From: Aliiroseovarius marinus
Lineage (GTDB): Bacteria; Pseudomonadota; Alphaproteobacteria; Rhodobacterales; Rhodobacteraceae
Direction: 5' to 3'
Assembly (NCBI RefSeq): GCF_004360145.1
Contig: NZ_ML178714.1
Location: forward strand, 141,474 to 205,473
DNA length: 64,000 bases
Shown here in pieces: positions 1,516 to 21,082 of this stretch; position 1 is the first letter of the stretch; each line of letters opens with the position of its first letter. The notes beneath the pieces were generated by a model. The model made no database searches. It was given only the letters and a program-made list of their open reading frames with translations, and was not told the origin of the DNA. A program made the translations under genes and the position numbers.

Positions 1516-2185
1516 TGTGATCAGTGACACGCCCCAAGAAGGGCAGGACGCGCGCGAGGAAAGCCTGTTCGAGGCCCCGCCGATGGGCGAACAGGAACGG
1601 ATGGTCGAGGCCATCCTTTTTGCCTCTACCGAGGCCGTCAGCGTGAAAGAACTGGAAGACCGGATGCCTCATGGCTGCGATGCGGCCGAGGCTCTGGTCC
1701 ACCTGCGCAAACGCTATGAAGGGCGCGGTGTGTCGGTTGTCAAAGTGGGCGACGCATGGGCGATCCGCACCGCACCCGACCTTGGTTATCTGATGCAGAA
1801 AGAAACGGTCGAGCAGCGCAAACTGTCACGTGCCGCGATCGAGACCTTGGCAATTATCGCCTATCATCAACCAGTTACACGGGCCGAGATTGAAGAGATC
1901 CGCGGCGTGTCCGTCAGTCGCGGCACCATTGATCAGTTGATCGAGATGGAGTGGATCCGCTTTGGCCGCCGCCGCATGACGCCGGGCCGCCCGGTCACCT
2001 TCGTGGTCACGCCGGGCTTCTTGGATCACTTCGGTTTGGAAAGCGCCCGTGACCTGCCGGGGCTGAAAGAGCTGCGCTCGGCCGGTCTGCTGGAAAGCCG
2101 TCCGCCCCCCGGCGCAATGCCCGGACCCAACAGCGACGACGAGGACGAAAGCCCCGAAGGCCAGTCCGAACTGTTCGAGGATTGA
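1505..2185 (+). CDS. scpB: Segregation and condensation protein B
   Basis: Partner of ScpA in the SMC condensin complex; it dimerises and binds the kleisin linker. I start it at ATG 1505 (MTDDVISD), inside the scpA end, rather than at an upstream in-frame codon at 1415, because the upstream part only re-reads scpA. The product is 226 residues. Recognisable are VEAILFASTEAVS in the first winged helix and ETLAIIAYHQPVTRAEIEEIRGV, the conserved ScpB core around residues 115-140. The acidic tail ending QSELFED is unstructured-looking. Confidence 0.95.
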   Translation: MTDDVISDTPQEGQDAREESLFEAPPMGEQERMVEAILFASTEAVSVKELEDRMPHGCDAAEALVHLRKRYEGRGVSVVKVGDAWAIRTAPDLGYLMQKETVEQRKLSRAAIETLAIIAYHQPVTRAEIEEIRGVSVSRGTIDQLIEMEWIRFGRRRMTPGRPVTFVVTPGFLDHFGLESARDLPGLKELRSAGLLESRPPPGAMPGPNSDDEDESPEGQSELFED

Positions 2186-2189
2186 TGCC

Positions 2190-2399
2190 ATGAATGCCAA
2201 TCAGCTGATTAATATGGTCATCCGCATGGTGACGCGCCGCCTGATCAACAAAGGTGTGAACACCGGGATCGACATTGCGGCCCGGAAAGGTAAACGGGTT
2301 GAAGACATGACCCCGGAAGAGCGCCAAGAGGCTCGCAAAGCACGCGAGCTTGCCAACCGTGGGCGGAAGTCCATGCGGATAGGGCGGCGGCTGTTTTAA
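2190..2399 (+). CDS. Small basic conserved-looking protein of unknown function
   Basis: A 69-residue ORF five bases after the scpB stop, same strand, with base composition like scpB, so it is probably the last gene of the nagZ-scpA-scpB operon. The sequence is amphipathic at the N-terminus (NQLINMVIRMVTRRLINKG), then strongly basic (ARKGKR, KARELANRGRKSMRIGRRLF) around a short acidic stretch EDMTPEERQEARK. There is no signal peptide or clear membrane segment. I do not recognise a characterised family. In several relatives the tat genes follow scpB; this is not TatA, as it lacks the FG hinge and transmembrane helix. Confidence 0.7.
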   Translation: MNANQLINMVIRMVTRRLINKGVNTGIDIAARKGKRVEDMTPEERQEARKARELANRGRKSMRIGRRLF

Positions 2400-2416
2400 G
2401 CTGGTGTTGTTGTGCC

Positions 2417-2833
2417 GTGAATATCTACGAATTTGTAGTTGAGAAGCTGAAAACTCACGGTGTCGAAAAGTCGAGTCGTGGGAAACGAGTACTGCAAGAT
2501 CAGAAACTGCTATTGATGTTTATTGATCTTGAAAGAGCTGTTCGTAACCGCAGTTTTGACGCTGTTCTCGCTGCAGCAAATTCTATCGAAGACTACCTAG
2601 AGGCAATCGACGAACGACCATTGCTGGTCTTTGTCTACATGTATCTATGGCTTTCTGATCTTACTCCGAAGATGACGGAGGTGGACAAGGAACTCTCAGA
2701 CGGGCGTGTTCGGAAGACGTATATCTTTGCGAAACAGATCACAGATGAAGAACGGTTAATCGGTCTTTGGGCGAAGGTAAAATATGAGGAAGTGGGCAAT
2801 TCTCTTCTGGGGGCCTTGCATTCTAAGAGCTAG
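2417..2833 (+). CDS. Hypothetical protein, low-GC orphan
   Basis: A 138-residue protein with a GTG start and no convincing Shine-Dalgarno sequence; the start is uncertain. Two sampled 60-base stretches are 43-45% G+C, against about 60% in neighbours, and codon use differs visibly, so recent acquisition is likely. It is predicted all-helical and soluble (KRVLQDQKLLLMFIDLERAVRN, FDAVLAAANSIEDYLEAID, RPLLVFVYMYLWLSDLTPKM), with a charged C-terminus. No known motif is seen. It sits alone between the scp operon and convergent dcd. Confidence 0.6.
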   Translation: MNIYEFVVEKLKTHGVEKSSRGKRVLQDQKLLLMFIDLERAVRNRSFDAVLAAANSIEDYLEAIDERPLLVFVYMYLWLSDLTPKMTEVDKELSDGRVRKTYIFAKQITDEERLIGLWAKVKYEEVGNSLLGALHSKS

Positions 2834-2935
2834 TTTTCTTGGGCTGAATGAGAGACTGATCCCCCTGCTATCGTTACGATCCTAAGTCAAAAGGATCTGA
2901 CTGCAGCGAGCAGGAAACTAAGGCGTGAGTGCATC

Positions 2936-4009
2936 CTACTTAAAATGCTTCGACAGCTTCAGCCCTTGGCCCTGATAGTTCGACTTGATGTCGACACCGT
3001 AAAGCGCCTCGGGGATTTCGCTCATTTTTTCATAGACCAAGCGACCGACGACCTGTCCGTGTTCCAGCACGAATGGGGCCTCGTGACAGCGGACTTCCAG
3101 CACCCCGCGCGAGCCTGATCCGCCAGCGGCATCATAGCCAAAGCCGGGATCGAAGAAGCCTGCGTAATGCACGCGGAACTCGCCGACCATCGCCAGATAG
3201 GGGGCCATTTCGGCGGCGCAATCGGGCGGGATGGCGATGGCTTCGCGGCTCACCAGAATATAGAACGCGCCGGGGTCCAGGATGATCCGGCCTTCGGTGG
3301 TGCGGACCTCTTCCCAGTACTCAGCCGGGTCGTAATGGGCCAGTTTCGACAGGTCTACGACACCGGTGTGGCGCTTGGCGCGATAGCCGACCAGATCGCC
3401 GTCAGCAGGCTTCAGATCGACCGAAAAGCCAAGCCCGTCTGAAATCACTGGCTCGCCCGAGACGATGGGGCTGCGGGCATGCACATCGCGCAGTTCATCG
3501 TCGGATAGAATCGTTTTGCCTTGCCGGAAGATGATCTGGTTCAGCAGTTGGCCGGGCTGGGCGACAACGGAAAAGCTCTGCGGGCAAAGCTCGGCATAAA
3601 GCGGGCCGTCATAACCTTCGGGCACGCGGTCGAACTCGATCCCCTGATCGGTGATCACGCGGGTCATCAGGTCGACGCGCCCGATTGAGCTTTTTGCGCT
3701 GGCAGCGGCGGTCATGCCTTCAGGTAGGTTCAGCTGTTCCATCAGGGGAATCACATAGACGCAGCCCTTTTCCAGCACCGCGCCGCCAGTCAGAGACAGC
3801 TCGTGCATGGTCAGTTCCGAGAGGCGATCAGCCACGGTGGCATCTTTCCCCGGCAGGAAGGATGCGCGCACGCGATAGGCTTTTTCGCCCAGTCGCAGAT
3901 CAAGCGAGGCCGGTTGGATCTGTTCGTTCAGGATGGGTGAGGACGCGGAAATACCGCCTTCCGTGATCATCTGCCGGATCTGATGATCGGCCAGCACACC
4001 GGATTTCAT
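2936..4009 (-). CDS. dcd: dCTP deaminase, double-length alphaproteobacterial form
   Basis: Makes dUTP from dCTP for thymidylate synthesis. At 357 residues it is nearly twice the ~190-residue E. coli enzyme and appears to contain two dCTP deaminase/dUTPase-like beta folds. The first half has IQPASLDLRLG (about residues 31-41), SAKSSIGRVDL and AQPGQLLNQIIF. The second has LDPGAFYILVSREAIAIP, FFDPGFGYD, GVLEVRCHEAP and LEHGQVVGRLVYEKM. The SSxxR motif is kept only in the first half. ATG 4009 has an excellent GGAGGAA ribosome site eight bases upstream. Transcription is toward the scp operon. Confidence 0.9.
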   Translation of the reverse strand: MKSGVLADHQIRQMITEGGISASSPILNEQIQPASLDLRLGEKAYRVRASFLPGKDATVADRLSELTMHELSLTGGAVLEKGCVYVIPLMEQLNLPEGMTAAASAKSSIGRVDLMTRVITDQGIEFDRVPEGYDGPLYAELCPQSFSVVAQPGQLLNQIIFRQGKTILSDDELRDVHARSPIVSGEPVISDGLGFSVDLKPADGDLVGYRAKRHTGVVDLSKLAHYDPAEYWEEVRTTEGRIILDPGAFYILVSREAIAIPPDCAAEMAPYLAMVGEFRVHYAGFFDPGFGYDAAGGSGSRGVLEVRCHEAPFVLEHGQVVGRLVYEKMSEIPEALYGVDIKSNYQGQGLKLSKHFK

Positions 4010-18968: not shown

Positions 18969-19676
18969 TTAGGGAAGCAGAACGGCAATCTCAAGCGGGG
19001 GCAGAAGCGAAAGCAGGGCTTGAGTGGCAAAACCTGCAAGGATGGCCCAGCCGAAGCTGGCAAGCGTGCCGATGATCACGTATTCGGCGGTGCGCTGATC
19101 GCGGCTGGCCGTGCCGAAGCGTAGGATGGATTTGGCGGCGACCAGAAAGCCCACGCCGAGTGGCAGGTCGGCAAGGATCAGAACGAAGACCAGCCCGCGC
19201 TCCAGAATGCCAATGGTCCAGCCGCCGCCCTTCAGCCCGTTGTTGCGGATGCGCAGGGAATGGGGCTGCATGAGGAGCCCGATGGCAAAGCCGCCGGCGC
19301 GGGTGGCGACGATGGCGCCTGCGGCCACTGCCAGAAGGGGCAGGGCGGTGTCGGGCCATGTGTCCCAGAGCGTCGGGGCATAGGCTGCGACGGCGATGAT
19401 GGTCACAAGATGTGCCGCCTGATCCCAAAGAAATCCCGAGAGCTTCCGAAATCCGCCAAATGACTTCACGGCGTCGATGATCAGGTGCGCGAAGGCCAGA
19501 ACAAGCAGTTCGGGCGCATCGTAGGTGCCCAGCGCGGCCTGTGCGGTGACAAGGACGATCAGCGCGTGCAGAAGCAGGACTTGGGGGCGCCGCTTGTTGT
19601 CGGTGATCCAATTGGTTTGAAAGACAAAATCAGCAAGCACATGGGCGAAGAGGAGGGCTGTGAAGGTTTCAATCAT
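18969..19676 (-). CDS. DUF3307 integral membrane protein, SatD partner
   Basis: A 235-residue polytopic membrane protein with about six or seven hydrophobic segments. The N-terminal FAHVLADFVFQTNWI is the DUF3307 hallmark with its HxxxD pattern; a second His-Asp set is in FAHLIIDAVKS. Its start overlaps the satD stop by 8 bases, so they are co-translated; SatD and DUF3307 genes often pair in other bacteria. Function is unknown. I infer it is the membrane output of a SatD-controlled module. Internal GC is like neighbours. Confidence 0.85.
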   Translation of the reverse strand: MIETFTALLFAHVLADFVFQTNWITDNKRRPQVLLLHALIVLVTAQAALGTYDAPELLVLAFAHLIIDAVKSFGGFRKLSGFLWDQAAHLVTIIAVAAYAPTLWDTWPDTALPLLAVAAGAIVATRAGGFAIGLLMQPHSLRIRNNGLKGGGWTIGILERGLVFVLILADLPLGVGFLVAAKSILRFGTASRDQRTAEYVIIGTLASFGWAILAGFATQALLSLLPPLEIAVLLP

Positions 19677-20319
19677 CTTTGGCCTCTTCGTTCTCGATGT
19701 TTTCCAGCGCGGTCCAAACTGCGTCGAACCCCGCGCCCTCCAGTGCTTTCGTTACAGCCTGACGGGACTTGCCCAGCGCTCTTGCCACGTCGGTATGGCT
19801 TGGAAGCTTTCCCGGAGCCAGCATGAGAAGAATGGCAGTCGCTTGCGCCGGGGTCCAGCCCTGCGAGATGTGGTCGGCAAGCGCGAATGTTGCGCCGACG
19901 GCACTGATATTCAGGTGACCCATTCGCCGTTCGTTTGGATAGCGTTTAAGCACTTCAAGCAGGCGACCACTATCGACAAATGGCTGTTCAGTGAGTTGGT
20001 TCAGGGTTGTACCGCTGGGAATCGGAGAGGCTGGCCCCTCTGCCACCGCCATAAACGTCGAAAACTCTTTCCCCTCACAGCGCAACGCCGCGCGAAAGGC
20101 CAGCGCTGAGCGCAGCGCCAGTTCCGGACGGGCGAGCCTGACCTGCCATCCGTCTCCGCGCTGGCGGGTGAAATGCAGGTCTTCTCCGTGCCACTCGGCC
20201 TGAACCTCGGCAGAGGCAGACAGCGCGTCGAAGGCGCGTTCCAGATCCTCGGGCGTCATTTGGGTCGAGCCGATGATGTCCCCCGTCAGGACGACGATAT
20301 GGGATAGGTTTTCACTCAT
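19669..20319 (-). CDS. SatD-family protein with C-terminal helix-turn-helix
   Basis: 216 residues. N-terminal IVVLTGDIIGSTQ (residues 8-20), then QRGDGWQVRLARPELALRSA (53-72) and EQPFVDSGRLLEVLK (111-125), resemble in order the metal-Asp, GDG and late motifs of class III nucleotidyl cyclases, although full catalytic residues are not evident. Residues ~158-195 (TPAQATAILLML, SHTDVARALGKSRQAVTKAL) form a helix-turn-helix. SatD was named for acid tolerance in Streptococcus; its biochemistry is unclear to me. A regular array of inverted repeats covers its promoter, and no ribosome site precedes ATG 20319, suggesting autoregulation and a leaderless mRNA. Confidence 0.82.
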   Translation of the reverse strand: MSENLSHIVVLTGDIIGSTQMTPEDLERAFDALSASAEVQAEWHGEDLHFTRQRGDGWQVRLARPELALRSALAFRAALRCEGKEFSTFMAVAEGPASPIPSGTTLNQLTEQPFVDSGRLLEVLKRYPNERRMGHLNISAVGATFALADHISQGWTPAQATAILLMLAPGKLPSHTDVARALGKSRQAVTKALEGAGFDAVWTALENIENEEAKDD

Positions 20320-20322
20320 GGT

Positions 20323-20460
20323 GCAACCATAATAGGCTGCGAATGGTAAAGTGCAACCTTTTTAGGTTGCGATTGGGGGAATGCATCCGAAAATGATTGC
20401 GAAACGCAAAACGCAACCCGATTGGGTTGCGCTGGGCCGATCTGCGTCGACAGAAGTTGC
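20323..20460. repeat. 30-bp-period array of palindromic operator-like sites
   Basis: Four 18-base sites of form GCAACC-N6-GGTTGC start at 20323 (GCAACC/GGCTGC), 20353 (GCAACC/GGTTGC), 20383 (GCATCC/GATTGC) and 20413 (GCAACC/GGTTGC), exactly 30 apart with 12-base non-repeated gaps. A fifth half-site AGTTGC (20455-20460) keeps the phase. The array fills the gap between sufT and satD. The sites are best read as binding sites for a dimeric regulator, most simply SatD. Confidence 0.8.
20329..20356 (-). promoter_or_regulatory. Candidate leaderless promoter of satD
   Basis: On the minus strand TTGCAC (20356-20351) and TATTAT (20334-20329), with a 16-base spacer. The -35 lies in array site 2 and the -10 in site 1. 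Transcription would start 0-3 bases before ATG 20319, consistent with the absence of a Shine-Dalgarno sequence. Confidence 0.5.
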
Positions 20461-20473
20461 ACCGGGTGAGGGC

Positions 20474-20839
20474 TTACATGAATCCCAGTTCCAACCGCGC
20501 CTCGTCTGACATCATTTCCATGCCCCAGGGCGGCTCCCACGTCAGTTCGACATTCACCTGTTTGACGCCCGCAACGGGTTCAATCGCTTCGACCAGCCAG
20601 CCGGGCATGTCGCCTGCAACGGGGCAGCCGGGGGCGGTCAGGGTCATGATCAGGTCGACCTCGTTCTGGTCGTTGATCACGATCGTGTAGACAAGGCCCA
20701 GATCGAAGATATTTACTGGGATCTCAGGGTCATAGACGGTGCGGCAGGCCTCGACCACCGCGTCATAAAGCGGGTGCTCTACGCTGGACGGTTTGATCAG
20801 GGGTTCCCCTTCAATCCTTGTATCGGCTGTATCGGTCAT
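20474..20839 (-). CDS. sufT: SufT / DUF59 (MIP18-type) Fe-S maturation protein
   Basis: A 121-residue DUF59 protein that helps load Fe-S clusters when demand is high; it works with the SUF system. The motif VYDPEIPVNIFDLGLVYTI (about residues 35-53) and the conserved Cys in MTLTAPGCPVAGDMPG (about residue 72) are clear, followed by VELTWEPPWGMEMMSDEAR. It is the last suf-like gene before the satD promoter array. The core suf genes are not upstream in this window, since the adjacent + strand gene is unrelated, so it may be transcribed alone here. Confidence 0.92.
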   Translation of the reverse strand: MTDTADTRIEGEPLIKPSSVEHPLYDAVVEACRTVYDPEIPVNIFDLGLVYTIVINDQNEVDLIMTLTAPGCPVAGDMPGWLVEAIEPVAGVKQVNVELTWEPPWGMEMMSDEARLELGFM

Positions 20840-21082
20840 GCTGGTCTCGCTCTAATCCTGAGCGAACATATAGGGTTCTCGTGTCGCAAGGTCCAGAGGG
20901 GCAATGGCAGACAGGAAAAAATGCAGGCAGAAACCAAAGATCAAGCTTGGAAAAAGCCACCATAATTACAGCTATATATTGACGAAGTGGGGGCCAAATT
21001 TCGCCATAGTTGCAGGTCAGTTTCAGTTGGAAAGGCTCTGATGGGGGCTGTGCCCTTTTTAGGGTGAGGGGATCGAAAAGGG

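Follow-up and report, generated by a model that had tools for sequence, protein, structure and literature searches.

Four near-identical palindromes set at exact 30-base steps lie directly upstream of a satD-like gene in Aliiroseovarius marinus. Taken as a whole, this array is best explained as the operator of a local, self-regulating cassette made up of satD and a DUF3307 gene, a reading to which we give a probability of roughly 85% in the absence of any binding or transcription data. The array was first described in an earlier note on the window, by which we mean the whole stretch of 64,000 nucleotides that was analyzed. Within the 154-base gap between the sufT stop codon and the satD-like ATG, the motif GCAACC-N6-GGTTGC occurs four times on the plus strand, from 20323 to 20430. 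Site 1 (GCAACCATAATAGGCTGC, 20323 to 20340) has one mismatch and site 3 (20383 to 20400) has two; site 2 (20353 to 20370) and the distal site 4 (20413 to 20430), the one nearest sufT, are perfect. An additional half-site, AGTTGC, is located in phase at 20455 to 20460, with no matching left arm, so that it remains a half-site only. Positions, spacing and shuffles bear out the earlier description of four 18-base sites, two perfect and two with one or two changed bases, and the in-phase half-site that was said to end at 20460 is indeed present. The 30-base step is exact as reported, but its rendering as about three helical turns needs correction: taking 10.5 bp for each turn, 30 bases correspond to ∼2.9 turns, and among relatives the step is 28, 29 or 30.

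With steps fixed at 30, 45 of the 48 half-site bases in the four sites agree with the consensus. When the letters of the 154-base gap are shuffled 20,000 times (mononucleotide shuffles), agreement never exceeds 32 of 48, and the best other place in the window scores 34 (37-base-step scan). Single degenerate sites occur in the window at chance level (45 matches with three or fewer mismatches versus 44 expected), and single sites are therefore not rare; the array stands out solely by its phasing and its near-perfect copies. Across the 3.13-Mb genome, perfect copies of GCAACC-N6-GGTTGC are confined to sites 2 and 4. A pattern composed of the palindrome and the next half-site at 30 bases, allowing up to three mismatches, matches the genome ten times: six matches are in the array with one or two mismatches, and four are elsewhere, each with three. 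No second array or genome-wide regulon was found with this pattern anywhere in the 3.13 Mb.

The comparison of satD upstream gaps among relatives, which the earlier note had named as a check, shows that palindromes and a 28- to 30-base step are kept in most of them. Relatives were drawn from 16 loci on named contigs and from genus, family and order genome samples, in which satD is present in 10 of 21 genus genomes, 85 of 394 family genomes match (one by a weak partial match) and 72 of 292 order genomes match (seven by weak partial matches). After removal of regions under 150 nt and of duplicates by upstream sequence, 105 nonredundant upstream regions contain 312 palindromes, defined as 6-N6-6 with at least five of six pairs, versus 84 in dinucleotide shuffles. 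Pairs of like palindromes at spacings of 28, 29 and 30 number 11, 52 and 31 in these regions, compared with 0.01, 0.01 and 0.02 in shuffles. In 2,100 mononucleotide shuffles the chain score has its 99.9% point at 6 and never goes above 7. This score exceeds 6 in 82 of the 105 regions and, with added loci included, in 101 of 142 upstream regions, versus 2 of 142 control stretches of 170 bases taken from within the same genes. In the 98 arrays used for layout counts, steps of 29 are most frequent (94), followed by 30 (55) and 28 (16), and the arrays are composed of two (46), three (37) or four (15) sites, making the window array, with four sites and a step of 30, a full-sized member of the set. 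The remaining 41 of 142 upstream regions score no array. Among the 141 loci left when L162 is omitted, 18 of the arrayless ones encode a recognition helix with the R-Q residues of array-bearing proteins, and several of these 18 show what by eye seem to be degenerate arrays. Two loci, L114 and L162, were excluded from the layout counts, from the tree and from the 188-column covariation scoring described below, but are kept, both listed as discordant, in counts of 142 loci and 100 arrays; L113 and L114, in which the helix-turn-helix (HTH) is cut or broken, were excluded from the 186-column scoring. L162 is counted both among the 142 relatives and among the 24 distant loci considered later.

The gene that follows the array encodes a regulator of 216 amino acids (19669 to 20319, minus strand), comprising a class III nucleotidyl cyclase fold at approximately residues 6-135 (19915 to 20304) and a C-terminal HTH. 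Its product was modeled with AlphaFold2 at a pLDDT of 93.3 and a pTM of 0.91, and the fold of the model matches the class III nucleotidyl cyclases Rv1625c (E 1.1e-4), Cya2 and Ma1120 over ∼100-175 alignment columns. A profile of orthologues finds Ma1120 by sequence as well (E 2.7e-05; E 0.0009 with a wider profile). This alignment to a PDB sequence is confined to the first part of the cyclase domain, which limits what it says about the transition-state Asn and Arg conserved in active enzymes. The HTH weakly resembles those of the MarR-type proteins ZitR and AdcR. In the alignment to Ma1120, residues D14 and D56 fall on what we take to be the metal-binding aspartates of cyclases, and each is conserved in all but one of 141 relatives. 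Less constant is the arginine position in the SGR motif, presumably that of the catalytic arginine on the basis of motif likeness without structural superposition: it holds R in 81 of 141 and otherwise mostly Q, H, D or A. The N-terminal cyclase fold suggests a nucleotide-sensing repressor, and a nucleotide is the natural guess for its ligand; that SatD binds nucleotide is nevertheless one of the less certain inferences, resting on the fold only. The name SatD used in the earlier note is partly justified. No match of the window protein to Pfam SatD (PF16264) is seen at E values up to 10, hence "SatD-like," whereas 2 of 24 orthologues do reach PF16264, with a best E of 4.9e-07.

Immediately downstream, and overlapping satD by 8 bases, is the DUF3307 gene (18969 to 19676, minus strand), encoding a multi-helix and presumably membrane protein. 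Its model is predicted to be all-helical (pLDDT 91.9), and searches against the PDB returned no fold match better than E 0.82 and no sequence match at E up to 5. Residues invariant in 34 DUF3307 sequences include H12, D16, Q20, H37, H64, D68, K71, D85, Q86 and H89, and H12, D16, Q20, Q86 and H89 remain invariant when four plasmid homologues are added. The invariant positions are of the types His, Asp, Gln, Glu, Lys and Arg. The protein may be a membrane enzyme.

Both genes occupy the same 10 of 21 congeneric genomes and behave as one cassette. The upstream neighbor sufT (20474 to 20839, minus strand) is found in all 21, including the cassette-free genomes. DUF3307 is located downstream of satD in 102 of 105 loci, with two lacking it and no data for one, and sufT is located upstream in 96 of 105. 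In seven of the nine loci whose upstream neighbor is not sufT, the array is still present. No array is found in the 11 congeners without satD, in which the best chain score is 5, from a lone site, and a sufA-type gene follows 182-280 bases after sufT. Two of these intervals retain apparent remnants: G017 (L190) has the distal site without any mismatch and, after it, 17 residues that match the DUF3307 tail exactly, whereas in G004 (L194) the distal site differs at one base and a short stub of the DUF3307 tail is left. Judging from their sequence, these remnants between sufT and sufA are scars of cassette deletions. Comparison of the genomes shows, within the limits of such data, that the array goes with satD and not with sufT.

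Half-sites differ between lineages, with GCAACC, GCACCC, GCAAGC, TCAAGC, GAAAGC and ACAAGT among the forms seen. Identity of half-sites is 0.85 within an array versus 0.69 between arrays, keeping in mind that arrays were chosen partly for such likeness. Variation at three of the six bases follows the recognition-helix region of SatD (residues 182-197; 19729 to 19776, minus strand), which contains the specificity residues R186, Q187 and K191. In 100 arrays, lysine at 191 is accompanied by C at base 5 in 27 of 27 and other residues by a base other than C in 72 of 73, giving 99 concordant cases. Arginine at 186 is found with G at base 1 in 81 of 83, and its absence with absence of G in 15 of 17 (96 of 100 concordant), and for glutamine at 187 and C at base 2 the corresponding numbers are 91 of 95 and 4 of 5 (95 of 100). 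Counted by half-site, C stands at base 5 in 153 of 166 cases where residue 191 is lysine and in 18 of 360 where it is not. When all 186 or 188 scored protein columns are compared, the best columns for bases 1, 2 and 5 are residues 186, 187 and 191, all of which are within the HTH recognition helix. Step length also differs by lineage, with 30 used in 49 of 56 steps of K191 arrays and 29 in 88 of 109 of the others. The pattern is not without exceptions. K184 and F89 also track base 5 closely, the best column for bases 3, 4 and 6 lies outside the recognition helix, and one locus (L082) has C at base 5 although its residue 191 is not lysine. On the supporting side, an array is missing for 18 of the 20 proteins that carry Q or K at 186.

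Part of the covariation signal is shared ancestry. A tree from which the HTH was left out has three changes of K191 and four of base 5. Most random pairings have all three independent K191 pairs in agreement with base 5, and some have two of the three; for R186 there are two supported pairs, both agreeing in most pairings. With only three and two events, respectively, significance by a sign test is out of reach. Nevertheless, that SatD itself binds the array, as the earlier note had supposed, gains support from conservation across lineages, from the likeness of half-sites within arrays and from the covariation of three bases with three residues, and further from the absence of an array where satD is missing or its helix has diverged. 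We conclude that SatD most likely recognizes its own array, on comparative evidence that is good yet short of proof without binding data. If so, R186 with base 1, Q187 with base 2 and K191 with base 5 would constitute a code of protein-DNA recognition that can be read from sequence and of which natural variants already exist.

Two promoter-like motifs coincide with the array on the minus strand. TATTAT (20334 to 20329) is contained in the N6 of site 1, which spans this candidate -10, and TTGCAC (20356 to 20351), a candidate -35 overlapping site 2, is supplied by the right arm of that site and the next two bases and lies 16 bases upstream of TATTAT. These motifs and their spacing are as the earlier note had given them; their status as the satD promoter is plausible and not shown, as no promoter emerged, and the -35 was missed, when 20250-20900 was scanned with a simple sigma-70 consensus. 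By reading, no Shine-Dalgarno motif precedes the satD ATG. In 73 of the 98 arrays the last site ends 0-5 bases before the assigned start codon, and an SD-like motif is seen in just six of these 73, an arrangement that suits a leaderless mRNA, as for AcuR in Rhodobacter. The N6 of the start-proximal site in these near-start arrays is TATA-like, with T as its third base in 63 of 73 and A as its fourth in 58 of 73. The proposal of a leaderless satD transcript fits most array-bearing relatives but not all of them, given that 24 of 98 arrays are more than 14 bases from the start codon (eight of these with an SD-like motif), and it remains plausible but unproven. In two relatives, L092 and L101, satD starts with a GTG inside the sufT stop, leaving no gap and no array; here satD is presumably cotranscribed with sufT.

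Based on this layout, we propose that SatD dimers, one on each 18-bp palindrome, would bind side by side at 28- to 30-bp steps, and that neighboring dimers would touch each other, because step length is so nearly constant, differing by a base or two at most. Such an assembly would repress satD by covering both the -35 and the -10 of its promoter, with transcription in the window expected to start at or just before the ATG. Repression rather than activation is an inference that follows from this geometry, without expression data. With less certainty, we infer that the N-terminal cyclase fold would make no cyclic nucleotide and would instead bind a nucleotide and tune assembly on the array. The regulated cargo would be the DUF3307 membrane protein, whose own role is inferred.

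Other explanations of the array can be weighed against this proposal. Any HTH dimer could use palindromes of this kind and, with no binding data at hand, a different, unlinked regulator might occupy the array, satD being merely its target. We regard this as very improbable, since bases 1, 2 and 5 covary best with the helix of SatD itself among 186-188 columns, and since no second array was found in the genome and the array is absent from the 11 congeners that lack satD. The reverse arrangement, in which SatD activates its own gene or is a still-catalytic nucleotidyl cyclase that also binds DNA, draws on the class III cyclase fold and the near-universal retention of D14 and D56 (140 of 141 each). 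Against it are the overlap of the operator with the candidate -10 and -35 and the variable arginine of the SGR motif (81 of 141), and we consider it unlikely.

The palindromes could also act in RNA, as hairpins that terminate sufT transcripts or give structure to a satD leader. Site 4 with its flanks (20410-20433, minus strand) scores as an intrinsic-terminator-like hairpin downstream of sufT and, in relatives, TTT occurs within 7 bases after 52 of 101 distal sites; where 7 bases follow the site, the corresponding counts are 29 of 72 for middle and 5 of 27 for proximal sites. Doubling of the distal site as a terminator for sufT is therefore quite possible. As an account of the whole array, however, we regard RNA hairpins as very improbable when set against the fixed 28- to 30-base steps, the TATA-like proximal spacer, the greater likeness within arrays (0.85 versus 0.69), the covariation with the HTH and the arrays that persist at seven of nine loci with no sufT upstream. 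A CRISPR-like array, iterons and transposon repeats were set aside by argument without a dedicated search, on the grounds that the array goes where satD goes, lies over the promoter region of that gene and changes along with the helix. The operator of a satD-DUF3307 cassette under its own control remains our preferred reading.

The cassette extends well beyond the close relatives. A profile run on a class sample found only short, weak partial matches outside the family, in eight genomes. Searches with PF16264 in a phylum sample and three order samples matched 3 of 249, 10 of 237, 1 of 32 and 3 of 226 genomes, yielding 14 distinct loci, three of which were found twice. Plasmid searches gave 16 records, 10 of which were opened; the unopened ones are five small Klebsiella plasmid records and one from Pseudoalteromonas. 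With the step allowed to range over 27-31 and the gap set to 5 or 6, likewise in shuffles, we found palindrome chains that are matched by no more than 2 of 300 shuffles at 19 of these 24 distant loci, with steps of 28 or 29 (one has a 27). Several of these loci are near relatives of one another, and therefore the number of independent cases is lower than 19. Distant half-sites, such as TGACCC, TTAGCC, GTAACT and ATCGAT, differ from those of the window, and in Segatella copri (Bacteroidota) the half-site is TTGATT and the array overlaps the annotated start. Of the five distant loci below the mark, L238 is borderline (12 of 300) and no array was found at L230, L232, L235 or L239. For the genome loci found with PF16264, the chain score is reached by at most 1 of 300 shuffles at 14 of 14.

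An annotated DUF3307 gene adjoins the SatD-type gene in all nine annotated plasmid homologues that were opened. In the Escherichia coli plasmid pEC34A (L237), which is only 3,770 bases in length, satD and DUF3307 (1792-3481) are two of five annotated genes, and a palindrome pair with a 29-bp step lies upstream of satD. When E. coli genomes were searched at near identity with the pEC34A cassette, 242 records matched, but 80% coverage of the query was reached in none of them, and the ten matches listed are to ∼80 bases at the query start. On a Sphingomonas insulae plasmid (L230, 4096-5642), the locus mentioned above as having no array found upstream of satD, the pair has as neighbors genes for a Pycsar-type effector, an E2-associated protein and a cyclase, and a TIR gene is close by. 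A single query with the L162 protein found no SatD in phages, whereas relatives of DUF3307 occur alone in 14 phage records, including Sulfitobacter phage pCB2047-A and Aeromonas phage Aeh1. PADLOC gave no match for the window SatD or DUF3307, and membership of the window pair in a PADLOC defense family was rejected for this reason; of nine proteins submitted, only the SatD of pEC34A matched, over its HTH part (best E 8.8e-05).

These distributions leave room for a broader idea, namely that SatD-DUF3307 is a widespread mobile stress or defense module in which a nucleotide-released repressor silences a harmful membrane enzyme, DUF3307. On this view a nucleotidyl cyclase domain would have decayed into the sensor of the repressor, which would fill its phased operator one dimer after another. 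We offer it as speculation that is possible but doubtful. According to the parts available to us of a Streptococcus pyogenes pangenome study with Tn-seq, satD is essential yet accessory: it is present in 178 of 249 genomes, and no other accessory gene has an essentiality score in the top quarter (PMC11323703). A repressor that guards against a harmful partner would be needed only where the partner is present, and so predicts a gene that is accessory but essential. Such a reading would explain the S. pyogenes puzzle, for which it gives a testable account, and, if true, would also explain the travel of the pair on very small plasmids; no streptococcal loci were included in our comparison. Apart from this speculation, the proposed operator reading would by itself give a poorly understood but broadly spread family a concrete molecular job.

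The earlier note knew of no described system with this operator layout, and that statement cannot be upheld in full, given that NrdR (paired palindromes) and AcuR (a leaderless transcript and an N6 palindrome) are precedents in kind. In those portions of the literature on SatD, DUF3307 and cyclase-HTH proteins that were available, we found no report of the operator described here, and we do not claim that it is absent from print. The core reading of the earlier note does hold, as far as comparative data can tell: the array is genuine, is kept across many lineages and most likely serves a cyclase-fold regulator of SatD type as its operator. The family for which PF16264 is named, that of the streptococcal sat operon, resembles the window group in having arrays at all 14 distant genome loci and in the order of a SatD-type gene followed by DUF3307, although this neighbor was left unchecked for most distant genome loci; it differs in that the window protein itself has no match to PF16264. 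In the accessible parts of the literature, SatD has been tied to acid tolerance, and no role as a repressor that binds DNA is described for it. The fold and the two aspartates are shared with class III nucleotidyl cyclases (Ma1120, Rv1625c and Cya2), and SatD is unlike them in its C-terminal HTH and its variable SGR-motif arginine. If SatD acts as we propose, a nucleotidyl cyclase fold takes part in controlling transcription from an operator with several sites.

AcuR of Rhodobacter sphaeroides, a member of the TetR family, is encoded by the first gene of the operon that it represses and has a leaderless mRNA, and its inverted repeat, TAATAGAC-n6-GTCTATTA, overlaps the promoter next to the ATG (PMC3017554). 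SatD would share with AcuR the combination of a leaderless autorepressor and an N6 palindrome over the promoter; AcuR is unlike SatD in its single palindrome, its family and its acrylate inducer, and the portion of that report available describes no phased array. The closest working analogue is NrdR, a nucleotide-sensing repressor with tandem palindromic boxes in promoter regions. In the sections available of the reports on it, these boxes are ∼31-32 bp apart and binding is by an oligomer and depends on box spacing (PMC2892513, PMC12051234). NrdR has a zinc ribbon and an ATP-cone, neither of which appears in the Pfam matches or the 50 listed fold matches of the window protein, and it uses two boxes to control ribonucleotide reductase genes, whereas SatD combines a cyclase fold with an HTH and has mostly two to four sites, none of which were found outside its own cassette. 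We claim no kinship between the two and regard NrdR, by analogy only, as a parallel to SatD and not as a relative.
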